Source: Candidatus Cloacimonadota bacterium (GTDB taxonomy: Bacteria > Cloacimonadota > Cloacimonadia > Cloacimonadales > TCS61). From it: a DNA stretch of 55,013 nucleotides. Positions 7,356 through 30,799 of this stretch are shown in pieces (position 1 is the first letter of the stretch; each line of letters begins with the position of its first letter). The DNA is taken from positions 1 to 55,013 of the forward strand of contig JABGOP010000001.1 in assembly GCA_018645365.1 (NCBI GenBank). Direction: 5' to 3'. Under the pieces are notes generated by a model. The model saw only the letters and a list, made by a program, of their open reading frames with translations, had not been told where the DNA came from and did not search any database. The position numbers and the translations under genes are program-made.

Positions 7356-7393
7356 AAAAACCTGCAAGTTGTTTATACTTGCAGGTTTTTTGT
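7356..7393. terminator. Bidirectional terminator between lipoprotein and methylase genes
   Basis: AAAAACCTGCAAGT and ACTTGCAGGTTTTT form a 14-bp perfect stem with loop TGTTTAT and T-runs on both strands. It can end the lipoprotein transcript (plus) and the five-gene defence operon (minus), whose last stop is about 60 nt away. Confidence 0.9.
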
Positions 7394-7450: not shown

Positions 7451-9043
7451 CTAAAAATAATTGTATTGTTTTCTAATCCTCTTTTGAATTAATTTTTTTC
7501 TTATTGTTTTAAGTTTATCTAACTCATTATTATTTATACCTAAAATTGGATTTAATATTTTAACATCATTTTGCGAAAGAATTTGTTCTATGTTTTCTTT
7601 ATTTTCAAAATCAGAAGTGAAATTAACAAATTGATTATCACTAATATTTGTATATGGAATTGGTAATTTTTTAAATTCGCTGGGAGTTAATTCTAGTACA
7701 CCACCACCATAATATCTTCCTTCAATTTCTGAAAAAATTAGAGTTAATGTATTATAAAAAGAATAAATGAAACTACTTAAATCATAGCCACTATTCATTT
7801 GAATTTTATATGCTGAATCTGTAACAAAAGCATCAGAATTGTTTTTCAATAATTTGGGAAATAAATGACTTCTTTTAAAAAAGAATGCTTTGGGTTTTAA
7901 TGCAATATTGGGGATAACATACCAATTATTTCTGTGTTTACATTTGTATCGATTAGGAATTCCTAAATTTTCTCCAATCAATAAATATTTTCTAAGGTTT
8001 GGAGAGATCTTTTCATTATTATTCAATTGTAATAATTTTGTCGGATAATTTGCACTCTCTAAAGATTTAAAATCATTTTCACTAAAAACTACACTACCAT
8101 TAACATACAAACCTTTTTGAATAATAGGTTGAGTATATTTTGATAATTTATATTTTTTTTCTGTTTCTTTGTTTATAATGAAAAATTTATTAGCGGCCGT
8201 GACTATGCCAGGACTTGATTTACTATAGAAATTAGTAGTTTTTAATTGCTTTTTAAAATTATAAAGAAAAGTTAATTCATCAGAAGACAAAAAATGATGT
8301 GTCCATTTTATTTTAGATTCAATGAGTAAGTTATTTTGTTTAAGAACAAATGATTTATTCCCCAACTCTTCTTTAGATTTGATATTAGTAAAAAACTCAC
8401 CCTTTTCAATAGCTTGTTTATAAGCAAATAAAATAATGGTATCTTGTCCTTTACATTCAAACATTAAATCATTAAAGGTGAAAATTTCAATTCGTTCAAA
8501 TTTCCTTTTTAAAAATTCTCTAATTTCTTCGGCAAATTTTACTTGTAATAATTCTGATGGAAGAATAAATGCTAAAATCCCATTTTTACTTAAATGAAAA
8601 ATTGATTTTACTAAAAATGTCGTCCAAATATTTTTTGTTGCTTTTCCTAATAGGTTGTTTTTCTTATGAATTATTTTACTGATTTCAATTTGTTCGTTCG
8701 TAAGTCTATTTTTTTTAATATAAGGTGGATTTCCAATGATTGCAGAAAATAAATTTTCAGGTTGAAACTTCAAAAAATCAATGCATTCAAATTTAGAATT
8801 TCTTTTATTCCACTTTTTAGAAGCTTTAATTAATTCATCAGGATTGATTTCCAAAGCAGTTAATTTTATTGATAGATTATTGTTACCTACATTTTTTAAG
8901 GCCTCAATAAAAGCTCCATCACCAACACTTGGTTCTAATATTGATATTCGTGATCTTTTATTAAAATATGAAAGGACTCTTTTTGAAATGAAATCAGCTA
9001 AATAATCAGGTGTATAATACGAACCTGTTTTTTTTTTATCCAT
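7451..9043 (-). CDS. Adenine-N6 DNA methyltransferase (Eco57I/TaqI-like)
   Basis: 530-residue Class I methylase. N-terminal TGSYYTP (residues 6-12, motif X), SAM-binding motif I LEPSVGDG (36-43), and catalytic motif IV NPPY (105-108), diagnostic of N6-adenine methylation. The C-terminal half should be the target-recognition domain; GGGVLELTPSEFKKLPIP near the end is typical of Eco57I/TaqI-like specificity domains. No nuclease motif is visible, so this is the modification partner, with cleavage presumably by the HNH protein. Its ATG overlaps the HNH stop by 8 nt (ATGGATAA). A run of ten A residues covers codons 3-6, which could mutate by slippage. It is the last gene of the operon. Confidence 0.9.
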   Translation of the reverse strand: MDKKKTGSYYTPDYLADFISKRVLSYFNKRSRISILEPSVGDGAFIEALKNVGNNNLSIKLTALEINPDELIKASKKWNKRNSKFECIDFLKFQPENLFSAIIGNPPYIKKNRLTNEQIEISKIIHKKNNLLGKATKNIWTTFLVKSIFHLSKNGILAFILPSELLQVKFAEEIREFLKRKFERIEIFTFNDLMFECKGQDTIILFAYKQAIEKGEFFTNIKSKEELGNKSFVLKQNNLLIESKIKWTHHFLSSDELTFLYNFKKQLKTTNFYSKSSPGIVTAANKFFIINKETEKKYKLSKYTQPIIQKGLYVNGSVVFSENDFKSLESANYPTKLLQLNNNEKISPNLRKYLLIGENLGIPNRYKCKHRNNWYVIPNIALKPKAFFFKRSHLFPKLLKNNSDAFVTDSAYKIQMNSGYDLSSFIYSFYNTLTLIFSEIEGRYYGGGVLELTPSEFKKLPIPYTNISDNQFVNFTSDFENKENIEQILSQNDVKILNPILGINNNELDKLKTIRKKLIQKRIRKQYNYF

Positions 9044-9662
9044 TATAATATGCCATAAGTTCTTTGTGATAGATATAATATTGGATTGTATATGTTCCTA
9101 AATTAGTTCTTATTACAAGATAATTATCTGCATCTTCTTTATAATTATTCAACTCTATTATTAATGCATCAATAATTTTTCTAAGTTCATTCAAATTCCA
9201 TAGAATAATTATTGAGCGTTCTCTTTCATCAAACTTAAATGCTTTTGTTGCCATCCATTTTCCTAGAGGGGTATTCCACATTATACTTCCCCTACTTGTT
9301 CTGTAAAGATGCTTCTCATATTCAGCCTCACAAACATCAATAAAACCCTCATCGTTTATAATTGGAACATTTTCATCTTGAGACGGCCACAGTTTACCTT
9401 TTTTATTATTACAAAACTTACACGAGTATATTAGGTTATCATATTGGCAATACTCGATATTTCCATTTTTTTCAAAAAGGCTTTTGGGTATAAAATGATC
9501 AACTTCAAAATAAGTATGCCTAAAACCATCAAAAGAACCACAATAGCCACAGCAAGAATTGAAATCTTCTTTTAAATCAGGTTTATGTTCAGACCACCTT
9601 TTCCCTGTGGGATTTTTAGTTGGAGTTGATCTTCTCTTTGGTATTTGGTCTCTGACATTCAT
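9036..9662 (-). CDS. HNH endonuclease
   Basis: 208 residues. The HNH fold is clear: a CGYC knuckle at 38-41, catalytic EVDHFIPKS (Asp55-His56), Asn76 in YDNLIYS, and a second knuckle Cys81-x2-Cys84 followed by NNKKG. Such domains nick or cut DNA using one metal ion. The C-terminal ~110 residues are helical with no family I recognise. Between a receiver gene (47-nt overlap with its start) and a methylase (8-nt overlap with its end), it is best read as the restriction nuclease or effector of the operon. There is no good Shine-Dalgarno, in keeping with coupled translation. Confidence 0.88.
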   Translation of the reverse strand: MNVRDQIPKRRSTPTKNPTGKRWSEHKPDLKEDFNSCCGYCGSFDGFRHTYFEVDHFIPKSLFEKNGNIEYCQYDNLIYSCKFCNNKKGKLWPSQDENVPIINDEGFIDVCEAEYEKHLYRTSRGSIMWNTPLGKWMATKAFKFDERERSIIILWNLNELRKIIDALIIELNNYKEDADNYLVIRTNLGTYTIQYYIYHKELMAYYNG

Positions 9663-10320
9663 TTTTACTACTTTTTTCTATTAATGTTTTAAGGAATTTT
9701 TCTGCTTCTTTTCTTGTCTTAGATAGTGTTTCAATTTTATCATCAGATGTTAATTGTTTGGGAACTTCATTTCTTTGAGTTTTATCAAGATTATTTAATT
9801 CTTCTTGAATTACTAACAAATCATTTTTTTCAATAGATGATAATCCTTCTTTCTCACCTTTTACAAGCAAATCAGCTAATATCTTTTTTTTATTCGAAAT
9901 ATGCTTTTTGTATTGCTCAATACTTTTAGTTAGTATTGTGACAAATTTCTCAATTTCTTCATCACTTGAGAAAACCTTAGTTTTATCAAAGATAATTTTC
10001 CAATCTTCAACCTTATCTTTTGTTTCAGAATCATCAGCGTTATTTGTGAAAATTATATGTGGGAACAAGGGTTTATTATCATAAATCAAACTCTCAACAA
10101 CATCTCCGTTAAAAGCAAGAATATTAGTCTCATTTAACTTAAAATCAATCATTAATAAATCAATATCAGACTTGTACACTTGTTCCATTAGACTTTCTAA
10201 AGTTGTTTCTTTCTTAATGTCATAATCAATAACATAAAAATATTCCTTTAGCTTTCGTTTATATTTTTTTACTTGCTTTGGATCTTCATCAATATACCCG
10301 ATTGTAAATTTTGAATTCAT
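9616..10320 (-). CDS. Receiver-domain (response-regulator-like) protein
   Basis: 234 residues. Residues 1-~125 look like a CheY-type receiver: acidic pocket Asp11-Glu12-Asp13 (YIDEDP), phosphoacceptor Asp59 (LLMIDF), Thr92 (IIFTNNADD) and Lys113 (FDKTKVF). All residues needed for phosphorylation are present. Instead of a DNA-binding output domain the rest is charged, helical and probably coiled coil (residues ~125-225). This suggests it acts by protein contact, perhaps on the HNH nuclease or methylase. It starts 4 nt after the histidine-kinase-like gene with RBS AAGGAGA, so the kinase-like protein is the natural phosphodonor; that link is inference. Confidence 0.8.
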   Translation of the reverse strand: MNSKFTIGYIDEDPKQVKKYKRKLKEYFYVIDYDIKKETTLESLMEQVYKSDIDLLMIDFKLNETNILAFNGDVVESLIYDNKPLFPHIIFTNNADDSETKDKVEDWKIIFDKTKVFSSDEEIEKFVTILTKSIEQYKKHISNKKKILADLLVKGEKEGLSSIEKNDLLVIQEELNNLDKTQRNEVPKQLTSDDKIETLSKTRKEAEKFLKTLIEKSSKNECQRPNTKEKINSN

Positions 10321-10324
10321 AAAG

Positions 10325-11233
10325 CTATTTTCTCCTTGTTGGAAAAGTAATGTTTACAGAAAATCCACTATTTGGATCTAGAACACTTATGCTACCATTA
10401 TTATCATCTATTACATCTTTTACTAAATACATCCCTAAACCTGTCCCATTTTTCTTTGTGGTTGTAAATGGTAAGAATATTTCTTCATTATCTTCAAATA
10501 CATTAGATAAACCAATACCATTATCAGAGTAATTAATCACAATATTATCTTTAATTAATTCTGTGATAATGCAAATCTCTCTTTTTTTTATTTCTTCTCT
10601 ATGATCTCTTTTATTAAAAGAATCAATTGAGTTGTTAATCAAATTTGTAAAGATAGTATTCATATCCATTTCGAATGCACGAAAATGATAATCAATATCC
10701 TTAAGGTTATCAATAATCGTAAATTTTATATCTTTAGTTTGAAAGACTTTTTTCCAAGATTTTTTCAATTTAATGAAATAATCAGAAAAGTCTAAAGGTT
10801 TTCTTTTCCTTTTATCTTTTTTAATAGCTGTTAATGAATAATCAATCCAGTGTTTTATTTTTTCACTATTTTCATCAAGCAATTCCAGAATATCAATAGC
10901 ATCTTTGTATTCTTCTGCCTTTTCTAAATCTTTTGTAATTAATGAACTAAACAATCCTCCTAATGATTTAATCTCAGATGAATTGTCTCTTATTTCTTTT
11001 AACTCGTGTGAAAAGGATGAAACAATTAATCCTAAACTTGCCAATGCTCTTACTTGAACTATTTCTTCATTATCTTTTCTTTGGTATTCTTCTTCGATTT
11101 TTTGAAATGTTTTTATTAATGTTTTTTCATAAGTCTTTCTTTCTTTTTCTTCAGTTTTCTTTTCATCAAAATTTGTAATAATATTTATTTCTCTTTCTAA
11201 ATTTTTCCTTTCCTTGATAATTTCATTTGCCAA
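10325..11233 (-). CDS. Soluble histidine-kinase-like GHKL ATPase
   Basis: 302 residues, no membrane segment. A coiled N-terminal region (1-60) leads to an H-box-like FSHELKEIR with His76, then the ATP-binding lid: N-box TNLINNSIDSF (~196-206), G1 SDNGIGL (236-242), F-box IFLPFTTT and G2 GTGLGMYLV (263-271). This is a complete HisKA/HATPase module. The only start available is a TTG with no Shine-Dalgarno, inside the 3' end of the paraMORC gene (37-nt overlap). The joint has a slippery A_AAA_AAT, so it may be made as a -1 frameshift fusion with the upstream ATPase. It is probably the activity switch for the downstream receiver protein. Confidence 0.85.
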   Translation of the reverse strand: MANEIIKERKNLEREINIITNFDEKKTEEKERKTYEKTLIKTFQKIEEEYQRKDNEEIVQVRALASLGLIVSSFSHELKEIRDNSSEIKSLGGLFSSLITKDLEKAEEYKDAIDILELLDENSEKIKHWIDYSLTAIKKDKRKRKPLDFSDYFIKLKKSWKKVFQTKDIKFTIIDNLKDIDYHFRAFEMDMNTIFTNLINNSIDSFNKRDHREEIKKREICIITELIKDNIVINYSDNGIGLSNVFEDNEEIFLPFTTTKKNGTGLGMYLVKDVIDDNNGSISVLDPNSGFSVNITFPTRRK

Positions 11234-12720
11234 TTTTTTGCTCGTTCGTTAATTTCTTGTTCTTTAGCCTTTTCTTTTTCTTTTTTTATATGCTTGTAGA
11301 AAACATTAAGAATTTTACTCCTATCATATTCAAATTCGTGTATTAAACCTATAATTATTTTTTTAAATACTTCAAAAGATTCATTTTCTTGTAACGCTCC
11401 TCTATCTGATTTGTCTTTTAGAAATGGATTAGTTTTTCTGGAAATTGAGATCATTCCTGCAGTTTGTTCTGGTCTAACGCGCCAATCACCAATACGCTGA
11501 CCTGCTCCAGCTGGACTTTGCGCTACTCTTGCACCAAGTCTTAACCAATCATTGTTTGGATCACCGTAAGGTCTTACTCGGAATGAATCTCTATAAATTT
11601 TCACTCCGCCAAATTTATCCAGAACACTTCTTCTTTCTTTTGTATTTATTAATTTATACGGATAACCTTCTTTTCTTGAAACTGAATATTTTAGATAATA
11701 AAAAGATAATTCAAAAGAGCCAACATCATTCAAAAGCTTAATATTATTCTTTTCTAAATTCCATTTTAATATTTTATCAATTGATTTAGTATATTTGAAA
11801 GTCCTATTATTCAGTGTTTGTAAATCATAAGGTTTCTTTGCATCATTGAATAAATCTTCATAGTTCTTCTTTATTTTATTATGATTGAGTTCATTTCGTG
11901 TTATTTCAAAATCGACAGTCAATGTATCTGAATCATATTTAGCTTTAACTTTGTAATCGTAATCATTAAAAAAAGCAGTTTCAACTGAACCAAAATTCTT
12001 CGGTTGTTGTAAATGGATCAATGTTACATCAAAAGGAATCTTAAATTCTTTAGGAGGGATTAATGCTTCTAAACTTTTATAAACATTGTTTATTCCATCA
12101 TCAGACCAATCATCTTTTAAATTTGAGATTTTTAAAACAGTACCACTTCTAAAATTAATTTTCTCAATTATCTCATTTACATTATCATTCTTAATAATTG
12201 ATTTAATTTGCTTTTTAATATTAAACTCTAATTGTATTAAGTCAGCTTTAATTTCAGCAATAGATTTATCAGAATTATCAAATTGATTCCAATCCATTTT
12301 CCAATGAGATCCGATATTGCTTTTTACTTTTTTTGAAGTTGTCCACATATCTGTAGTAAAACCTAACCTATCTAAAGCAAATCTGCCAATTCCTTTGGCT
12401 CCTGTTTTTACTCTTTTTTCATCTGATAAATAATCTTTTTCCTTACTGCCTGTTCCGATTTTCATCCATAATTCTTTAATGACATCTTCTGTCATTCCTT
12501 CACCATTATCAATGATGTAAATTGTATCTTCTCTTTTTAAACTTTTTTTGTTTGTGCTATTGTCATTACTTTGAATGTCAAAAAAGATTAAACAATTTTT
12601 AGCGTCCGCATCATAAGAGTTTTTAACAAGTTCAATAATGGCTCCTTCAGGATTAGAGAAATTTTCTCTTCCTAATAATTTACCTGCTCTTGCAGAAACT
12701 GTAAAAGGTATTTTAGCCAT
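11197..12720 (-). CDS. MORC/paraMORC-like GHKL ATPase
   Basis: 507-residue ATPase of the Hsp90/MutL/MORC class. N-box IIELVKNSYDADA (28-40; Glu30, Asn34), G1 DNGEGM (71-76), G2 TGAKGIGR (106-113). The second half has the S5-like transducer region with GGVKIYRDSFRVRPYG (371-386), LGARVAQSP and a Lys/Arg-rich stretch, then a C-terminal coiled coil (465-495). Iyer, Abhiman and Aravind (2008) linked prokaryotic MORC and paraMORC ATPases to restriction-modification operons. These proteins are thought to clamp or remodel DNA-protein complexes on ATP binding. It is first in the operon, with RBS AAAGGAG and a TTGACA box 49-54 nt upstream of the ATG. Confidence 0.88.
   Translation of the reverse strand: MAKIPFTVSARAGKLLGRENFSNPEGAIIELVKNSYDADAKNCLIFFDIQSNDNSTNKKSLKREDTIYIIDNGEGMTEDVIKELWMKIGTGSKEKDYLSDEKRVKTGAKGIGRFALDRLGFTTDMWTTSKKVKSNIGSHWKMDWNQFDNSDKSIAEIKADLIQLEFNIKKQIKSIIKNDNVNEIIEKINFRSGTVLKISNLKDDWSDDGINNVYKSLEALIPPKEFKIPFDVTLIHLQQPKNFGSVETAFFNDYDYKVKAKYDSDTLTVDFEITRNELNHNKIKKNYEDLFNDAKKPYDLQTLNNRTFKYTKSIDKILKWNLEKNNIKLLNDVGSFELSFYYLKYSVSRKEGYPYKLINTKERRSVLDKFGGVKIYRDSFRVRPYGDPNNDWLRLGARVAQSPAGAGQRIGDWRVRPEQTAGMISISRKTNPFLKDKSDRGALQENESFEVFKKIIIGLIHEFEYDRSKILNVFYKHIKKEKEKAKEQEINERAKNWQMKLSRKGKI
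11233..11239 (-). other. Possible -1 ribosomal frameshift site A_AAA_AAT
   Basis: In the paraMORC frame the codons read GCA AAA AAT. Slippage by -1 on A_AAA_AAT enters exactly the frame of the histidine-kinase-like protein, giving a fusion of about 795 residues. The alternative is that a one-base change or error in this A6 run split a fused gene. I did not find a clear downstream stimulatory hairpin. Confidence 0.45.
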
Positions 12721-13661: not shown

Positions 13662-13870
13662 ATATTTCCTAGGATAGTCGGGAACTTTCCTAGGATAGTT
13701 GAAACATTTCCTAGGATAGTTGGAATATTTCCTAGGATAGTTGGAATATTTCCTAGGATAGTTGGGAACTTTCCTAGGATAGTTGAGATATTTCCTAGGA
13801 TAGTTGAAACATTTCCTAGGATAGTTGAAACATTTCCTAGGATAGTCGGGAACTTTCCTAGGAAATATTT
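13662..13870. repeat. Tandem array of ten 21-bp units
   Basis: CCTAGG recurs at exactly 21-bp steps from 13668 to 13857 (ten times). The unit is TTTCCTAGGATAGTTGNAANA with small variations (TTG/TCG; GGAA, GAAC, GAGAT). Being a multiple of three it is open in several frames: the plus strand reads FPRIVGN/ET/GI heptads, the minus strand YPRK-rich heptads continuous with the truncated T9SS gene. GAAATATTT borders both ends. There are no spacers, so it is not a CRISPR array. The region around it (13626-13982) otherwise holds only the terminator. Confidence 0.9.
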
Positions 13871-21367: not shown

Positions 21368-21376
21368 GATGTGATT

Positions 21377-24300
21377 ATGAAATATTTTATTATTATTTTT
21401 CTTTTAATTTCTACTTCGATTTTTGCAATTCAATTTGGCAATTCGCACGATAAAGGCGTCATCGAAAATGATGCGATTACCGAAGCTTCTGGTTTGGTCG
21501 AGAGTCGTAAAAACACGAATGTTTTTTGGACTCACAACGATTCCGGAGACGAAAATGTACTTTATGCCTTTAATGAAGGCGGTATACATTTGGGGACTTA
21601 CACAATTGATGATATCATAAATAGAGATTGGGAAGACATTGCCATCGCTATCATTGATAGTGAGCATTATCTTTTGGTCGGTGATATTGGCGATAACAAC
21701 TTAGCGTTTACAGAAAAACATATCTATCGCATCCCTGAGCCAGATGTGGATTACGAACAGATACCTGTTACAGAAACTATTTTTGGTACGGAAACAATTA
21801 CCGTTCAATATCCAAATGGAAACCATGATGCCGAGACCTTATTGTGTGACCCAACCACAAATGATCTTTACATTATTAGTAAACGATTTTCAAGCGAAGA
21901 GGGTGGCGTTGATTATCTATTCCGAGCCACTTATCCACAATCTACGGCCACAACTATTGAAATGGAAATCGTAGCAAATTTAGATTATCCCTCCACCTAC
22001 ATTCCGGGAGTTGGTTACGCTGGTGCAACGGGTGCCGAAATTTCTAACTCTGGTTTAGAAATTTTGGTCAAAACATATTCCCATACCTATTACTGGGAAC
22101 GCAATCTTGGACAAAACATTGATGATGTTTTTGAGAATGAACCGCTGAGTGTTACATATAGTCAAGAACCACAAGGCGAGGCTATTTGTTGGAAAATCGA
22201 CGGAATGGGATATTACACATTGAGTGAAGAATACGCTGGAATTCCGGCTCATCTATTTTTCTATCCGCGTGTTGATAACTACATCTCGCTTTCCGAAATC
22301 CCAACCGATTTATACAAAAGTGATGAACTATTTCAAGTTGAATGGCTTCCAGAAAATTTGGCAGGAGAGTTCTATTACTCCACTTCTCCAGGTGGTGAAG
22401 TAATTTCAAACTACACCGCATCTGGGCAAGTTGGAACAGGAAATATCGAAATTACTGCTGAAGATTTGGGAATTGGAACAGGTAATTATTATTGCGTAAT
22501 TCACAACAGTGAATACAATTACACATCTATCGAATTTTCTTTGATTATTGAAAGTTCTCAATCTACCCAAATGGTAAATCCAACAAATGGTTCAATAATT
22601 AATAATGAAATTCCTGTTTTTAGCTGGGAAGCAAATCCCGGCGTACCCTACTATTTTGTGGTAATTTCCGACCATCCATTTACCGTTGAAGAGGATGAAA
22701 ATGGTGAAACAATTATCGTGGGAATGCAACCAATTTGGCAAGCAGTAACTCCAAATACATCAATAAATTACGGCGACATTGACCCTTCGGGATATTTTGG
22801 TGGAAACGCTCCACCACTCGTAGCGGACACTGAATATAATTGGATTGTGGCGAATAATTATGGCAATGATCCGCTCTTCACTTCAAAAGTCATTTCGGCA
22901 CCATTTTCCTTTACCTTCGAAACAGAAAATTCAATCGAGCCACCAATTCTCATAACTCCAACCGATAATTCATTAATAAATGGGGATATTGCTTTTCATT
23001 GGAGCGAAGTTACGGACGCGATGACTTATCATATTTTTTTGTATGAAATAAGGAATGAGGGGGGGAATATCGGTCACTATTTGGTATGGGATCAAGTTAC
23101 CACAGACGAAACAGTAACTTGTTACGCCGCCGATTTTCTCGTAAATGCACATTTTATTTGGAAAGTAATCGCATCTGATGAACTGGGCGTTAGTGCATCA
23201 AGTGATGAATTTACTTTCCATTACAAAATCCCCATTGGAACGTTACAACTTCGCATCAGAGATCCACAAGGAAATGCGGTCAGTTTTGCAACTGCGGAAT
23301 TAGACCCCATCGACGGTTCTGGTGATAGTGTTCCTCTCGCCGTCAATGCAAATGGAAATGAAACCAAAATAATTCCACCCGGAGATTATTTTCTAACTTG
23401 CAGTAAAACTGGTTATGAAACTGCCGACAGCCTGATTACAATCACCGAAGATACCGATCTCGAATCTTCGCAAGGTGATGTTGTTATCACGATAATTCAA
23501 GAACATTCGCCTTCTCTATTTTATGGAGATGTTACAGATGAGGATGGAAATTTATTGGAAAATGTGGACATCTCTGCCATTAAGTCAAACGGCGACACAC
23601 GCACAACATCATCCAGTACAGGAAGTTATAATATTGGAGTCATCGAAGGTTTCTGGACGATTTCTGCAGACAAAGAAAGTTACACTCTCACTTCACCAAT
23701 CGAAGCATACATCAACACTGCTGAAAATATCCAATTGCCTAATGTCGAGATGTCGTTTAACGAAAAAACAGCCGAAGGTTATGTCAAAAATCTTGATGGA
23801 AATTCACTTTTTGGCGTTAATGTTACCGCTATAAATGGTAATATTGTCAGAAACAAAACCACCAATTCAAACGGATTTTTTCAATTTGAAGGTTTGAATA
23901 TTGGTAGTTGGACAATTTCCGCAGAAAAAGCAGGCTACTATTCACCGGGTGTAACGGTTATCGAAATTGATGCTACTTCGCCAGCCATTACCACACTCAA
24001 TGATATTTTATTAACCCCACAAGCAAATATCGTAATGGGCAATGTAAATAACGGCTTAGTGGGCGTGGATGATATTTTAGTAAAAGCTACTCCCGCCGCT
24101 GGACAACCCCATACAACGCTCACAAATCAATACGGAAATTACACTTTGAGTCTCCCCGCCGGTAATTTTGAAATAACCGCCATTCACGCAGGATTTTACA
24201 CCGATGAAATATATCAATTGAACTTGTCCGTTGCCGAAACACACGAAAATTTGAATTTCACATTAATTCAAAATGATGGTATGATTTGCGGAATCGTGAC

Positions 24301-27300
24301 TTCGGAAGAACAGTTTTTGGAAGGAGTTACAGTTTCAGCTGGAAGCTACCAAACCACCTCAAATGCAGATGGGACTTATTCATTATCTGTTTTTCCTGGT
24401 ACTTACACCGTTATCGCCACCAAAAATCATCACACTTGCAATTCACAAATTATCTCAATAAATTCGGATCAAATCGTTTCAAATATTAATTTTGAGATGA
24501 TTCCAAATGCAAGTATGGTTACGGGAAAAATATTAACGGAAGGTGGAACTGGAATTTCCAACGCAACCATAAAAGGCTATCGCACTTCAAATGGGGAATA
24601 TTTTACGCCGGCCACATCGAATGGATTGGGAGGTTATACGCTAAATTTACACCACGGTACTTACCAAATTTGGGCAGAAAAAAGTGGTTTTATTTGCGAC
24701 ATCGGCGACTCTCTCGAAATTACTACCGCTGCTGGTCAATCTCTACCAAATCAAAATATTGTCCTTTCGCTATACATTTCCCAAATTGAGGGAACTACTT
24801 TTTTGAACAACGGTGAAACCGTTGGAACCGTTAATATCACTGCCACAAACATAAATAATGCCGAACAATATTTTTCCACCATTAGTAATAATTATGGTAA
24901 TTATTCTCTTACGGTTACACCAGATATTCAATATGAAATAACGGCTACGAAACAAGGCTACGCACTCGATGAAACAGTTACAACTACTATTTTAGAGTAT
25001 GAAGAAAGTGTTGTTCATGATTTATTTTTCACACCACTGCCATCTTCAATTTCTGGAACAGTTTACGATGAATTTAACGAAATTATTATTGGTGCAACTA
25101 TTCAAGCTGAATTATTGGAAGAACCATTCATTATCACTTCTGATGAAACAAATGTGACTGGGCAATTCGAACTTGGTGTAACTTACGGTGAATTCCAAAT
25201 AACGGCATATAAACTTGGCTATCTTCAATCAGAAATATTATTAACGGTCAATCCCGGCGACAACATCGAAGATATTAATTTTTATCTTGATGAAAATTTT
25301 GGAATTTTAGAAGGAGTAATCACCGACGCAAACACAAATTTACCCATTCCAAATGCTCAAATTTCAGCAAATTTAGCAGGCGGAGGCGGAAGTACCGTCT
25401 ATTCAAATGAAAGTGGATTTTATCAAATGAATCAAATTCTGCCTGGCATTTACTATACTGTCATCATTTCAAAAGCAAATTACGAAACTACTGAAATTGA
25501 AAATCAGGTCGTGCCGGGTGGCGTTACAATTGAGCTAAATCAACAATTAGTGCCCTATTCATCGTCTATTTTGGTAAATGCGGAATTAAGTGGCGTTACT
25601 ATTTCTGCTGAAAGAATAGAAAATAGAGAAATTATTTCTGGCATTACAGATGAAAATGGGAATTGCCATCTCGAAGGATTGGCAAGTGGCGTCGAATGGA
25701 GTGTTACCGCTGCTCGCACCAACTATTCACCGAACCCTGTCGACAGCATTATCACCCTTTTGCCGAACGAAACACAAATGCTAAATTTCGAGCTAACCCT
25801 GAACAATTCTACAATTACGGGTTTCGTAACTAACATTAATCAAATCGGTTTGAACAATGTGCTCGTTTCAGCAACTTCTAATGATGGGTTTTATCAAGAA
25901 ACCACCTCTACTGCGACCGGTCAATTTTTCATCGTAAACTTAGCGCCATTCCATCAATACACTATTTCGGCAGCACTAGAAAGCTATACCATCTTAGCTG
26001 ATTCTGTCAGCTTTTTAGAAACTGAAATTGACACTGTAAATTTAATAATGCAAGAAAATAATTTAATTATTTCAGGAATTGTCGTCGATCAAACTGGACA
26101 AATTTGGGAAAATATCAGCGTCGAAATAGAAAACGAAAATATCTGGTGCAATACAAACGAAAATGGCGAGTTCACACTAATAAATCTCGCACCACTTCAC
26201 ACCTGTCAAATTGTTACAAATATCGTTGAACAAGGCTATGAAAACACTGATTCGTTGATTACGATAGATACTGAAAATATAGAAGATGTCGAACTCAAAA
26301 TTGATGTTCATACCGCTAATATAATTGGTCTAATTACCGATGAAAACACATTCGAACCAATTGCTGATGCGTCTATTATTGCTTCAAATGGTGCACAAAA
26401 TTTTGTGGCAATTTCACAACCAGATGGTTCTTATGTCTTGTCATATTTATACGCCGATGACTACGAATTAATTGTCATTGAAGAGAGCTATCAAGCCGAA
26501 ATTATTACATCTGTTTTGGTTGAACATCAACAAACTGTGGAACAAAATTTTGAGCTACTCTACACTGTACCAGTCTCCGTTTCTGGAATTTTGAGAGATA
26601 CAAGCGCACGCCCAATTGCAAATGCCATCATTAACCTTGTTGATGCGCGCGAAACATTTTCGGATACAACCAATGTGGACGGTGAATTTATTTTTACAGA
26701 AATTTCGCCATACACAAATCGTGTTATCGGCACAAATTTACCTTCCGAAAATTATGAAAATGATTTACACTCTGTGGAAATTTTGGCGGAAAACATCGAA
26801 AATATCGAGCTAATTACCGACATCCATTCAGCTTCAGTTTTCGGCACTATTAACGGTGAATTCGGGTTTCTTCCAAATGTGGAAATAGAGCTAACCTCCG
26901 AAGATTATCTGCAAAATTTTATTACAAATGAAAATGGCACATTTTCCTTCACTTATCTTTATGAAGGCAATTATGAAATTTTGATGGTAAGAGCTGGTTA
27001 TGAAGATTCCATTTTTACCTTTTCGCTTGTTGATTTTGAAAATAGCAATCTCAATTTTACACTCATTCCCAAAACAGGAAACATCGTGGGAACGGTTCAA
27101 AATACAAACGGTGATTATTTGAAAAATGTGGTAATTACACTATTGGAAAATGAGGTTGAGATAGCCCAGGATACCACATCTGTAAGCGGAACTTTTGCAA
27201 TAGAAAATCTAACCGAACTTCACGAATATGCCATAAATTGCGAAAAATTGGGTTACCAATTTTATCAGCACCCAAACTTATTAACAACCGATTCTACCGA

Positions 27301-30300
27301 TGTGGAAGTTTCGCTTTCGATGATTCCAAATTCTGTTTTGGGAACAGTTTATCACCAAAATGTTGAATTTGAAAATGCTACCATATTTATAAAAGATATC
27401 GAAAATAATCTCACCACCGCTCAATCAAATGAGTTTGGTGATTATTCCATCTCAAATTTAACCGGATATTACCAAATTTGGGGTGCAAATGCAGATGCCA
27501 CTTTGGTCAGTCACACTCAGTCAACCGTAATTGATGGTCCACAAATTGTACAAATCGAATTACTGCCAGCGGCTCACATTATTGGCACGGTTTTTTATAA
27601 CAATGTTCCAAAATCTGGCGTTACTATTTTCGCGATGAACACCAATAATGGTATGGTTTTATCTGATATTACTGAAACAGATGGGACTTTCGATGTAACC
27701 GGTCTTTCGGATGGCATTTACAATTTGAATATCGTCTTAGACGGATTTACCGTAAATGAACCAATTCCACAAGTTGAAATTGCAGACGGTGAAACTACCG
27801 ATATTGGTCAATTTACACTTACATTTTCGGAAAATGCGATTGCCGGCGTGGTCTCAATCGCAGAAACGAGGGAAGGAATTTCAAATACAACTGTTAAGCT
27901 TTTTGATGCAGAAATGACTCAAATTGACAGCATAATCACAACCGCCGACGGTTCATTCCTATTTACAAATTTAGACGATGGTAATTACGAAATTACGGCA
28001 ACACACATCGCTTACGAAATGCACGAAAGTATTTTTGTGATATTACAAGATGGATCTGCAACTCCTCAAACCGCCGACTTCCATCTAATCCCAAAAGAAT
28101 TAACTATCTTTGGACAAGTTACAGATGACGACCAAAATATTTTACAAAATGCAACTATTCAAGCAGTTTGTGCCGATAATGAAGATGATATTTTTATTGT
28201 TTTTACAGACAATTTTGGCAACTATTCACTTTCGGTGGATTCGGTAGCAACTTACAATTTAGGTGCTTCAAAAGAAGGTTACCACTCCCCTGAAAATGTA
28301 GCCATCACAATTGACTACGAAGAAAATTCACAAGTTGAACAAAATTTCGTTTTGGAATACATTCAACTTTTTGCGGATATCATAGGTAGTGTAGCAATCT
28401 TCGATGAAGCTTTGCAACAAAATGTCGCGCCCGAAAATGCAACTTTACAATTGTCCAATAGCAGTGGCGATTTACTGGAAATAACTATCACCGATTCGCT
28501 CTTTGCGTTTAATAATTTATCCATTCCAGATGTTTTTAGTTTGGAAATTTCCGCCACCTATTTGGACCAAATTTATCACGATTTGGCGTTTGGTATTGTC
28601 ATTTCGGAAGAAGGTGTTTACGACCAAAATTTTAATTTCCATTATATCGAAAATACGGTTTCACTGGAAGGAAATGTTTTCATGATTCGTGATTTTAATC
28701 AAATTCCTTTATCAAGTGTAACTGTTCAATTATTCGATGAAAATGCACAAATAGATAGCACTTTAACGAATGAAAATGGTTATTATCAATTCAATAATTT
28801 AACGGAAGATAACTATTCTCTCATTTTTTCAGCAAATTACGATAATGAATTTTGGCAATCCGAAATTATCCAAACCGAATGGACAGGTGAGAATATTTAC
28901 GAAAATCACTACTTCCAATACCAACTTTGTAATCTCGATTTTTACGTAATGGAAAACGACGAAACACCCATCAATGGAGCAACTATCCAGATAACTTCCA
29001 CCGAAAGAGACATCTTGCTTTACACAAATGAAAATGGTTATTGCACCACCGGCAGCACGCTTCACACAGGACATTACGCAGTAAAAATATCCAAAAATTA
29101 TGGAACTTTTGGTAAATTCATCGAGCCAAAAAATTATTTTCTCTCATTAGACTCACTCTCTTTTTACGAAGAACACAAAATCTTGCCTTTACAATTTGAC
29201 ACATCACAATTGCCAGAAACTGTTTCTAGTATTACATCTACCGAACTTTTATTACATCGAAATTTAGATTACGAAAATGATGTATTTTTGTGGTATTCTT
29301 TTGAAAATAGTGAACCAATCACTATTCAAATGAGTGATGATACAGCTGAATTAACCGCCACAATCCCACCTCAAAATCAATCTGGAAAAGTTAGGTTCTG
29401 GTTTGAATCCACCACCGAAAACTTAACTTATTCAAACGAAAATAATCCAGATAGTTTACTCATTACAACCGATGGTGTGTTGGGGACAGAATATTCCAAA
29501 ATCAATCCAAACCAACCAGTTTTCGTCTATAATCAGGAAACAATTTTTGAGGTAAATCTCTTCGATGATGCTGGAAATTCGCTCAATGATTCCACTGAAA
29601 TTTTAGTGGAATGGTCACTTGCCGATTCCACTATCGGCACAATAGAAAAAATTGAAAATGAAAGCAGAAAACAACTTTTCAGAGCACGAGAATTGCAAGA
29701 AGAAGATATTGCGGGTGAAATTTACGCCACCGTTTCCTTAAATGGCGTTACCATAAATTTGGTGGAAAATATCCAAATAAAAAACATGCAATTGGCGGAA
29801 ATAGACATTTCGGGAAATTTTGAAACAGACAACGAAACGCCACTTATTTTAACTGCTATCGCAAATAGCGACAGTGGTTTCACAATGAATATCCCGTTTG
29901 CTATTGCTCCTATTTCACCAATCATCGGTGAAATAGAAATGCAAAATAACAACATTTTATTTGTACCAAATAGCGAATATATTGGAAATTTTAACATCAC
30001 TATCAGTGCAACAGATCCAAATTTCGACAATGAAATAAGTGTTTCGCAAGAAATTATTGTTTTCAAACAAATAAATGCCAACACAAATTTAGCAACGCTT
30101 TTCACCGATGATGACTGTAATTTATTGCTTTACGAAGCGATGCTCGACACCATTTCCGCCCAGCAAGCAAAATTGTATTTGAATACCACAAATTCAGCAC
30201 CTTTCACGGAAGTTGGAGCAGAAAATGAAGTGAACGGAAAAATTTACAATCTCTATAGCAACAAAGCGAAAGAAGCATTTACGACTATGCCGGGATTACA

Positions 30301-30799
30301 ATTTGCGACAAATGACAATCTGCCATTTGTCGCATTTTGGGATGATCGGCAATTGGAATGGATAGTCGCCACCGAAGATGATGAAACCAATCATATTTTG
30401 GAAAATGTGCCGAAATGGTGCAATTACGCACTCGTCACTAACTCTAAAAAATTGGGAATTTACGATTTGAAATTACGCCCAAATCCATTCACACCTTACG
30501 ACCATTATGGTGAAAATATGGGACTGCAAATTGAATTCAAAATATCCTCAAACAAAACGCGATACCCACTCATCACTGCAAAAATTTACACAATAGATGG
30601 AACTTTAGTACGCACAATAGCAGATAAATACCCGCTTTTGAAAGGCGAACATCTTGCTGGTAAAGTTGGCACACTACATTGGAATGGCAAAACAAATGGC
30701 GGTAGAATGGCACGTAACGGACGCTATGTCATTCAGCTTATCGCGGAAGATGCTCAACATCGCGAAGAAATAGTGAAAACAATAATTCTAATAAAATAG
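21377..30799 (+). CDS. Giant surface protein with many carboxypeptidase-regulatory-like repeats
   Basis: 3,140 residues from ATG 21377 (AGGA 7 nt upstream; a GTG two codons earlier is less likely). Signal peptide FIIIFLLISTSIFA. Residues ~15-300 have propeller-like signatures (ITEASGLVESRKNTNVFWTH, DWEDIAIA, DIGDNN, DAETLL) seen in esterase-like beta-propellers. Two or three Ig-like segments follow to ~600. From ~620 to ~2,550 more than twenty ~75-90-residue repeats of the CarboxypepD_reg type occur (G.V....G..I.NA.I.........T...G.Y.L..L..G.Y.I.....GY). The C-terminus has LRPNPFTPYDHYGE...GRYVIQLIAED...KTIILIK, a FlgD-like/T9SS sorting domain. It is probably an extended surface fibre or adhesin. 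Confidence 0.88.
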   Translation: MKYFIIIFLLISTSIFAIQFGNSHDKGVIENDAITEASGLVESRKNTNVFWTHNDSGDENVLYAFNEGGIHLGTYTIDDIINRDWEDIAIAIIDSEHYLLVGDIGDNNLAFTEKHIYRIPEPDVDYEQIPVTETIFGTETITVQYPNGNHDAETLLCDPTTNDLYIISKRFSSEEGGVDYLFRATYPQSTATTIEMEIVANLDYPSTYIPGVGYAGATGAEISNSGLEILVKTYSHTYYWERNLGQNIDDVFENEPLSVTYSQEPQGEAICWKIDGMGYYTLSEEYAGIPAHLFFYPRVDNYISLSEIPTDLYKSDELFQVEWLPENLAGEFYYSTSPGGEVISNYTASGQVGTGNIEITAEDLGIGTGNYYCVIHNSEYNYTSIEFSLIIESSQSTQMVNPTNGSIINNEIPVFSWEANPGVPYYFVVISDHPFTVEEDENGETIIVGMQPIWQAVTPNTSINYGDIDPSGYFGGNAPPLVADTEYNWIVANNYGNDPLFTSKVISAPFSFTFETENSIEPPILITPTDNSLINGDIAFHWSEVTDAMTYHIFLYEIRNEGGNIGHYLVWDQVTTDETVTCYAADFLVNAHFIWKVIASDELGVSASSDEFTFHYKIPIGTLQLRIRDPQGNAVSFATAELDPIDGSGDSVPLAVNANGNETKIIPPGDYFLTCSKTGYETADSLITITEDTDLESSQGDVVITIIQEHSPSLFYGDVTDEDGNLLENVDISAIKSNGDTRTTSSSTGSYNIGVIEGFWTISADKESYTLTSPIEAYINTAENIQLPNVEMSFNEKTAEGYVKNLDGNSLFGVNVTAINGNIVRNKTTNSNGFFQFEGLNIGSWTISAEKAGYYSPGVTVIEIDATSPAITTLNDILLTPQANIVMGNVNNGLVGVDDILVKATPAAGQPHTTLTNQYGNYTLSLPAGNFEITAIHAGFYTDEIYQLNLSVAETHENLNFTLIQNDGMICGIVTSEEQFLEGVTVSAGSYQTTSNADGTYSLSVFPGTYTVIATKNHHTCNSQIISINSDQIVSNINFEMIPNASMVTGKILTEGGTGISNATIKGYRTSNGEYFTPATSNGLGGYTLNLHHGTYQIWAEKSGFICDIGDSLEITTAAGQSLPNQNIVLSLYISQIEGTTFLNNGETVGTVNITATNINNAEQYFSTISNNYGNYSLTVTPDIQYEITATKQGYALDETVTTTILEYEESVVHDLFFTPLPSSISGTVYDEFNEIIIGATIQAELLEEPFIITSDETNVTGQFELGVTYGEFQITAYKLGYLQSEILLTVNPGDNIEDINFYLDENFGILEGVITDANTNLPIPNAQISANLAGGGGSTVYSNESGFYQMNQILPGIYYTVIISKANYETTEIENQVVPGGVTIELNQQLVPYSSSILVNAELSGVTISAERIENREIISGITDENGNCHLEGLASGVEWSVTAARTNYSPNPVDSIITLLPNETQMLNFELTLNNSTITGFVTNINQIGLNNVLVSATSNDGFYQETTSTATGQFFIVNLAPFHQYTISAALESYTILADSVSFLETEIDTVNLIMQENNLIISGIVVDQTGQIWENISVEIENENIWCNTNENGEFTLINLAPLHTCQIVTNIVEQGYENTDSLITIDTENIEDVELKIDVHTANIIGLITDENTFEPIADASIIASNGAQNFVAISQPDGSYVLSYLYADDYELIVIEESYQAEIITSVLVEHQQTVEQNFELLYTVPVSVSGILRDTSARPIANAIINLVDARETFSDTTNVDGEFIFTEISPYTNRVIGTNLPSENYENDLHSVEILAENIENIELITDIHSASVFGTINGEFGFLPNVEIELTSEDYLQNFITNENGTFSFTYLYEGNYEILMVRAGYEDSIFTFSLVDFENSNLNFTLIPKTGNIVGTVQNTNGDYLKNVVITLLENEVEIAQDTTSVSGTFAIENLTELHEYAINCEKLGYQFYQHPNLLTTDSTDVEVSLSMIPNSVLGTVYHQNVEFENATIFIKDIENNLTTAQSNEFGDYSISNLTGYYQIWGANADATLVSHTQSTVIDGPQIVQIELLPAAHIIGTVFYNNVPKSGVTIFAMNTNNGMVLSDITETDGTFDVTGLSDGIYNLNIVLDGFTVNEPIPQVEIADGETTDIGQFTLTFSENAIAGVVSIAETREGISNTTVKLFDAEMTQIDSIITTADGSFLFTNLDDGNYEITATHIAYEMHESIFVILQDGSATPQTADFHLIPKELTIFGQVTDDDQNILQNATIQAVCADNEDDIFIVFTDNFGNYSLSVDSVATYNLGASKEGYHSPENVAITIDYEENSQVEQNFVLEYIQLFADIIGSVAIFDEALQQNVAPENATLQLSNSSGDLLEITITDSLFAFNNLSIPDVFSLEISATYLDQIYHDLAFGIVISEEGVYDQNFNFHYIENTVSLEGNVFMIRDFNQIPLSSVTVQLFDENAQIDSTLTNENGYYQFNNLTEDNYSLIFSANYDNEFWQSEIIQTEWTGENIYENHYFQYQLCNLDFYVMENDETPINGATIQITSTERDILLYTNENGYCTTGSTLHTGHYAVKISKNYGTFGKFIEPKNYFLSLDSLSFYEEHKILPLQFDTSQLPETVSSITSTELLLHRNLDYENDVFLWYSFENSEPITIQMSDDTAELTATIPPQNQSGKVRFWFESTTENLTYSNENNPDSLLITTDGVLGTEYSKINPNQPVFVYNQETIFEVNLFDDAGNSLNDSTEILVEWSLADSTIGTIEKIENESRKQLFRARELQEEDIAGEIYATVSLNGVTINLVENIQIKNMQLAEIDISGNFETDNETPLILTAIANSDSGFTMNIPFAIAPISPIIGEIEMQNNNILFVPNSEYIGNFNITISATDPNFDNEISVSQEIIVFKQINANTNLATLFTDDDCNLLLYEAMLDTISAQQAKLYLNTTNSAPFTEVGAENEVNGKIYNLYSNKAKEAFTTMPGLQFATNDNLPFVAFWDDRQLEWIVATEDDETNHILENVPKWCNYALVTNSKKLGIYDLKLRPNPFTPYDHYGENMGLQIEFKISSNKTRYPLITAKIYTIDGTLVRTIADKYPLLKGEHLAGKVGTLHWNGKTNGGRMARNGRYVIQLIAEDAQHREEIVKTIILIK

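Follow-up and report, generated by a model that had tools for sequence, protein, structure and literature searches.

Two-component kinases and MORC-type ATPases have both been placed beside restriction-modification (R-M) genes before. Bellieny-Rabelo et al. (2021; PMC8011034) described HATPase_c_3+HEF_HK+HATPase_c kinases whose genes adjoin those of Response_reg_2 proteins and of R-M systems; C5 methylases predominated among the latter, some HNH genes and N6/N4 methylases also occurred, and control of R-M was suggested. Iyer et al. (2008; PMC2292703) found paraMORCs in R-M operons, noted HNH neighbours for paraMORC1, and reported an SFII helicase as partner in about 70% of prokaryotic MORC operons, a frequent but not universal arrangement. 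In the DefensePredictor study (2026; PMC13092281), the legend to Fig. 6F includes HATPase and REC in the domain make-up of defence candidates that were predicted but not validated. Here we analyse a minus-strand operon in the first 55,013 nucleotides of contig JABGOP010000001.1 from a Candidatus Cloacimonadota bacterium (assembly GCA_018645365.1; this whole stretch is called the window), which encodes a MORC-like ATPase, a histidine kinase (HK), a receiver, an HNH nuclease and an N6-adenine methylase. By profile comparison its family is a separate HNH/N6-methylase branch of such systems, a nuclease branch not recognised in the 2021 account. What is new is a set of 17 HNH-type operons in several phyla, with invariant phospho-His and phospho-Asp, folds supported by models, natural mosaics of receiver tail plus HNH, and sensors broken in 4 of the 17. 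On balance we think it slightly the more probable reading that a receiver is activated by a fused sensor and in turn, by its tail, governs a PtuB-like HNH nuclease, in a cytosolic two-component operon of restriction type. The original prediction had seen a new logic in the control of restriction by such a receiver; this does not hold, since the 2021 paper had already linked a kinase-receiver pair to paraMORC ATPases and R-M genes, and that of 2008 had noted paraMORC with HNH.

The family shares with HEF_HK/Response_reg_2 systems a soluble HATPase_c_3, DHp and HATPase_c kinase, an adjoining receiver-like protein with a conserved Asp, and methylase or nuclease neighbours, and the kinase profiles of the two match at 1e-44. 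Between their regulator profiles no significant similarity was found. PF19191 (HEF_HK) gave no match at E up to 10 in the window HK and five fused relatives, PF19192 (Response_reg_2) gave none in the regulators of the window, L009, L007 and L008, and a whole-genome search with PF19192 gave none in G000. Strict membership is rejected on these profiles, and because the window proteins match neither, we assign them to a branch apart. Kinase and regulator are about 810 and 220 amino acids (aa) long, against about 995 and 550 in HEF_HK/Response_reg_2 systems, and the partners are an N6-adenine methylase and a PtuB-like HNH protein, whereas those systems carry a C5 methylase, often with Vsr. The window's own phylum also holds a canonical Response_reg_2 system (L031:2891-8379; kinase with an in-frame stop, receiver, C5 methylase and a Vsr-like gene), so both branches are found within one phylum.

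With the paraMORC operons of PMC2292703 the family has in common a GHKL+S5 ATPase with intact motifs, a MORC-like fold and the R-M context; it differs in its fused kinase core, in the presence of a receiver, which PMC2292703 does not mention, and in having no SFII helicase. As had been predicted, no helicase is encoded within the window operon, nor within the operons of L003-L006. Septu (PtuA-PtuB) and retron HNH effectors are alike in their PtuB-like, ATPase-controlled HNH effector, but the controlling ATPase of Septu is the ABC-like PtuA, whereas in the window family it would be of GHKL MORC/HK type and a methylase is always present; no PtuA ABC-type ATPase stands beside the PtuB-like HNH, whose partner ATPase is GHKL. 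The DefensePredictor candidate, compared by the domain names of the figure legend only, resembles the window system in having HATPase and REC domains. In a survey of full-text literature, with subscription-only papers outside its reach, no experiments on a relay of this kind came to light.

The five open reading frames (ORFs) lie on the minus strand as originally described, overlapping or at most 4 nt apart (Table 1), and their family labels are confirmed by matches well beyond chance to HATPase_c_3 (2e-18), HATPase_c (1e-13), HNH (PF01844, 2e-9), Eco57I (2e-15) and M_Eco57I_C (2e-33). They are not five independent genes, as had been proposed. In the closest relatives (Lentimicrobiaceae, Oceanihabitans, Flavivirga), which are 64-70% identical over the ATPase, ATPase and kinase form a single protein of 809-811 aa, and to the first 500 or so residues of fused relatives the window ATPase is 62-70% identical; the Maribacter sensor is also one frame except for one stop codon, and fused genes occur on a Bacteroides plasmid, in Salipiger and Deinococcus, and in another genome of the window's phylum. 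The relatives thus carry HATPase_c_3, DHp and HATPase_c in one soluble protein, which a frameshift divides in the window. There the ATPase frame reads GCA AAA AAT TGG and stops 11 codons after AAT, while the same bases in the kinase frame read AAA AAA TTG GCA; one extra A, or a -1 slip, within the A6 run would join both ORFs, and homology to the relatives is unbroken on either side with no residue lost. Because ATPase and kinase are one ORF in relatives with the same nuclease, the window operon reads as four genes, its sensor gene apparently split by a single missing A. Conserved programmed -1 frameshifting at A AAA AAT was considered, the heptamer being correctly phased, and rejected as unlikely because the relatives have an in-frame fusion and lack a slippery run at that place.

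The N-terminal half of the sensor is a MORC-like GHKL ATPase with an S5-like domain, and the original placement of a MORC-type ATPase at the head of the operon is upheld by both motifs and models. The catalytic motifs ELVKN-YDAD, D-G-GM and GxKGIGR are conserved among relatives, the first being intact in every sensor whose N-terminal part was aligned. A model of the fused Oceanihabitans sensor, of moderate confidence (pLDDT 61), matches the MORC2, MORC3 and SMCHD1 ATPases over about 500 columns, which supports the MORC label, and the ZraS and HK853 kinase cores over about 250. The Protein Data Bank (PDB), searched by sequence with the ATPase, gave no match, and phage records gave only two weak ATPase matches. 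In the kinase core, none of 18 sensors lacks the H-box His, and the residue after it is Glu or Asp in each; the N, G1, F and G2 boxes are present, with the G1 Asp kept in all except L007.

By sequence the window receiver is only weakly recognised (Pfam Response_reg, 0.022), and a PDB sequence search with it found no match. In its AlphaFold2 model, strands 1, 3 and 4 end at Asp11, Asp59 and Thr92 respectively and Lys113 follows strand 5, and the top PDB matches of this model in Foldseek are receivers or receiver-containing proteins. Asp59 is found in 21 of 21 loci; Lys113 is kept in most receivers and lost in L008, L035 and L036. The predicted phospho-sites His76, Asp59, Thr92 and Lys113 therefore stand, whereas the conserved acidic pair is Asp11-Glu12 and not, as first read, Asp11/Asp13; the signature residues of a two-component pair are present (kinase boxes; acidic pair, Asp, Thr/Ser and Lys of the receiver). 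Neither profile search nor the structure model revealed a DNA-binding domain in the regulator. Two weak receiver matches, L028 and L029, turned out to be ordinary receivers, and a receiver profile search of viral contigs returned 76 pattern matches, none of them a relative.

This conservation bears on whether phosphate is passed at all. The DHp and REC folds may instead serve only as surfaces, gated by ATP, on which a MutL-like restriction complex that loops DNA is assembled, a reading that draws on the well-conserved MORC-like half and on the looping proposed for paraMORCs in general by Iyer et al. (PMC2292703). We regard it as quite unlikely: even between phyla whose receivers are just 18-30% identical, the His, kinase boxes and Asp59 persist, which is unexpected if surface alone matters.

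Sensor, receiver and HNH genes stand side by side in 17 loci (the window, L003-L007, L009, L023-L027, L030, L032-L034 and L038) from Bacteroidota, alpha-Proteobacteria, Deinococcus, a Calditrichales genome and the window's phylum. These were gathered by ATPase or receiver similarity, the nuclease not being used as query. Each has the kinase adjoining the receiver in an R-M neighbourhood, with an N6-type methylase, from one of several families, beside or near it, and the receiver is present beside the HNH gene in every case. A receiver profile run against 395 class-level genomes gave six strong matches (E < 1e-15), all six with the full set. Between sensor, receiver, HNH and methylase, pairwise distances correlate strongly (r 0.72-0.95; 0 of 2000 permutations as high). 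The co-occurrence that the prediction had proposed to look for is therefore found, the parts being co-inherited. More distant ATPase relatives accompany other effectors: a C5 methylase in Campylobacter, and, in Burkholderia and Hymenobacter plasmid operons (L035:7784-8791, L036:7464-8501), an MBL-fold hydrolase that replaces HNH while the fused ATPase-kinase and the receiver are kept.

The window HNH protein matches PADLOC PtuB at 1.5e-12 and TIGR02646 at 1e-4; matches to PtuB models reach 3e-16, and such models are the best matches of all seven aligned HNH members. The window methylase (PADLOC MTase_II, 4e-139) is related to the M.BseCI and M.TaqI structures. An ordinary type II R-M system, in which HNH would be the site-specific endonuclease that belongs with the methylase and the relay would tune only expression or activity, would suit the presence of a methylase in every locus and its Eco57I/TaqI type in the window. 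We judge it improbable. The HNH protein has only about 200 aa, no PADLOC type II endonuclease model stands among its best 25 matches, its family partners several unrelated N6 methylases, and the regulator has no DNA-binding domain. Because it is so small, PtuB-like and paired with several unrelated methylases, we infer a regulated effector nuclease in preference to a self-sufficient site-specific enzyme.

How the parts may be wired is suggested by covariation among 16 loci. REC distance follows the kinase core with the tail controlled (partial r 0.76, p 0.0002), and tail distance follows HNH with REC controlled (partial r 0.50, p 0.0002), while no such tie is left between HNH and the kinase with REC controlled (0.07, p 0.24). 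The division is sharp in the six closest operons, at 0.74 for REC-kinase, 0.66 for tail-HNH and 0.03 for tail-kinase. Between L004 and L005, the clearest single example, DNA identity stands at about 95% through the kinase, falls to 72-79% in REC and 52-69% in tail plus HNH, and is 70-95% in the methylase; the L005 HNH is 73% identical to that of the window and the L004 HNH 71% identical to that of L023. This mosaic, together with the HNH affinities, points to recombination, one edge of which lies in the receiver gene close to where REC gives way to the tail: tail and HNH move as one cassette while kinase and methylase stay. Such an exchange, beneath a near-constant kinase and a closely related methylase, also speaks against the type II scheme. 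A second chimera is seen by trees in L024, where a clade-A methylase (L024:6808-8382) follows a clade-B sensor, receiver and HNH (L024:3119-6818), with the break at the HNH-methylase boundary.

The mosaic pattern favours a nuclease that would be controlled by phosphorylation. In such a relay the methylase would mark host DNA at N6-adenine, and the MORC-like half of the sensor, as input domain of the kinase, would engage DNA or a DNA-bound complex. A coiled coil would carry its ATP-driven closure on to the fused kinase core, which would phosphorylate Asp59, and the helical tail of the receiver, paired with the HNH protein, would then license the nuclease. The fuller picture, in which a MORC-type DNA motor serves as kinase sensor, a receiver without DNA-binding output switches HNH by phosphorylation, REC reads the kinase and a swappable tail matches the nuclease, we hold more tentatively, at just short of an even chance. 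Several points weigh against the relay. Genes lie in the order kinase, REC, tail, HNH, and linked recombination could produce part of the covariation; the methylase, though adjoining HNH, follows the kinase in distance, and distance along the DNA is for that reason not the sole cause. The within-clade pattern is carried by only six taxa, confidence in both structure models is moderate (pLDDT 69 and 61), the window itself carries a frameshifted sensor, and phosphotransfer, defence and nuclease activation are each things that we infer. Nor are four broken sensors in 17 many, and decay alone may account for such loci.

In all four HNH-type operons with a broken sensor (window, L005, L038 and L033) receiver and HNH are intact. 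This suggests that the nuclease is safe without the sensor, and the repeated loss of the sensor beside an intact HNH suggests that its role is to arm the nuclease and not to hold it back. A receiver that, with or without phosphate, holds HNH off like an antitoxin, the sensor releasing it upon attacked or unmodified DNA, would account for the joint exchange of tail and HNH, as of toxin-antitoxin partners, and for a receiver never absent beside HNH. A form needing the receiver alone is compatible with broken sensors; a version in which the kinase holds the nuclease off is disfavoured by the intact HNH genes beside them. Restraint by the receiver is in our view unlikely, and arming by the sensor remains our preferred reading. 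Breaks also occur in L059, L060 and L031, and the affected loci include isolates and finished plasmids; real lesions are therefore common. Sensor loss appears to recur across the wider family, with homopolymer switching a possibility. For the window alone, the two-ORF form may be an assembly or sequencing error in an organism with one intact fused sensor, which any mechanism would accommodate. The break comes down to a single A in a homopolymer, flanked on each side by full homology, but sensors are independently broken in L005, L038, L033, L059 and L060, and we consider an error possible though doubtful. The local copy may otherwise be dormant, or run on two polypeptides or on ribosomal slippage.

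Table 1. Features of the operon (positions in the window) and sensor breaks in related loci
Feature	Position	Strand	Remarks
ATPase ORF	12720-11197	minus	507 aa; ends 11 codons past frameshift; N-terminal part of sensor
A6 run at sensor frame break	11234-11239	minus	GCA AAA AAT TGG
HK ORF	11233-10325	minus	TTG start; overlaps ATPase ORF by 37 nt
DHp + CA histidine-kinase core	10325..11233	minus	HATPase_c match; usually C-terminal part of fused sensor
Phospho-acceptor His76 codon	11008-11006	minus	H-box of kinase core
Receiver/regulator ORF	10320-9616	minus	234 aa; 4-nt gap from HK ORF
REC half, residues 1-118	9967..10320	minus	AF2 model, Foldseek; Asp11, Glu12, Asp59, Thr92, Lys113
Asp59 codon	10146-10144	minus	receiver phospho-Asp
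Helical C-terminal tail, residues 119-234	9616..9966	minus	helices 120-157, 162-178, 196-219 in model
HNH ORF	9662-9036	minus	208 aa; overlaps receiver ORF by 47 nt
HNH core	about 9393-9551	minus	CxxC...DHF.P...NL.Y.C..CN; core residues conserved
Methylase ORF	9043-7451	minus	overlaps HNH ORF by 8 nt
NPPY motif	8731-8720	minus	N6-adenine methylase (Eco57I/TaqI-like)
14-bp hairpin	7356..7390		between convergent neighbouring gene and operon 3' end
Maribacter L005 sensor break	codon 73		in-frame TAA
Rhizobium L038 sensor break	codon 274		TGA
Salipiger L033 sensor break	5' end		IS66 element
Campylobacter jejuni plasmid L059 sensor break			one-base deletion in T run
Klebsiella variicola plasmid L060 sensor break			several breaks
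L031 sensor break			in-frame stop

The surroundings agree with a mobile element. GC content is 26.6% in the operon and 35.2% in the rest of the window, which fits acquisition from outside, and several relatives have other defence genes as neighbours, with matches to AriA/Old, NsnA, NsnB, PDC-S36, an Orf5-type protein, a defence reverse transcriptase and a type I restriction enzyme. We take the operon to be a probably mobile, horizontally acquired system of restriction type with a putative role in defence. No empty site was shown in the genus, where one flank gene was found in one genome and the other flank in none. The 14-bp hairpin is likely a terminator common to the operon and its convergent neighbour; a promoter scan scored no better than shuffles. 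Just upstream of the operon, between a T9SS-like ORF and a hydroxylamine-reductase-like gene, lies a tandem array of about 9.5 copies of the 21-bp unit TTTCCTAGGATAGTTGGAAAC (13664-13863). Farther away, a plus-strand ORF of 3142 aa (21371-30799) probably encodes a surface or secreted protein.

Should the relay prove real, a DNA-cutting defence enzyme would be armed by post-translational phosphorylation, linking two-component signalling to restriction, and eukaryotic MORC proteins would gain a bacterial relative in which an easily measured phosphate is the output of the ATPase. If the modular reading is true, effectors would be swappable under one sensor, and the natural exchanges of tail plus HNH point to an interface that can be tested.

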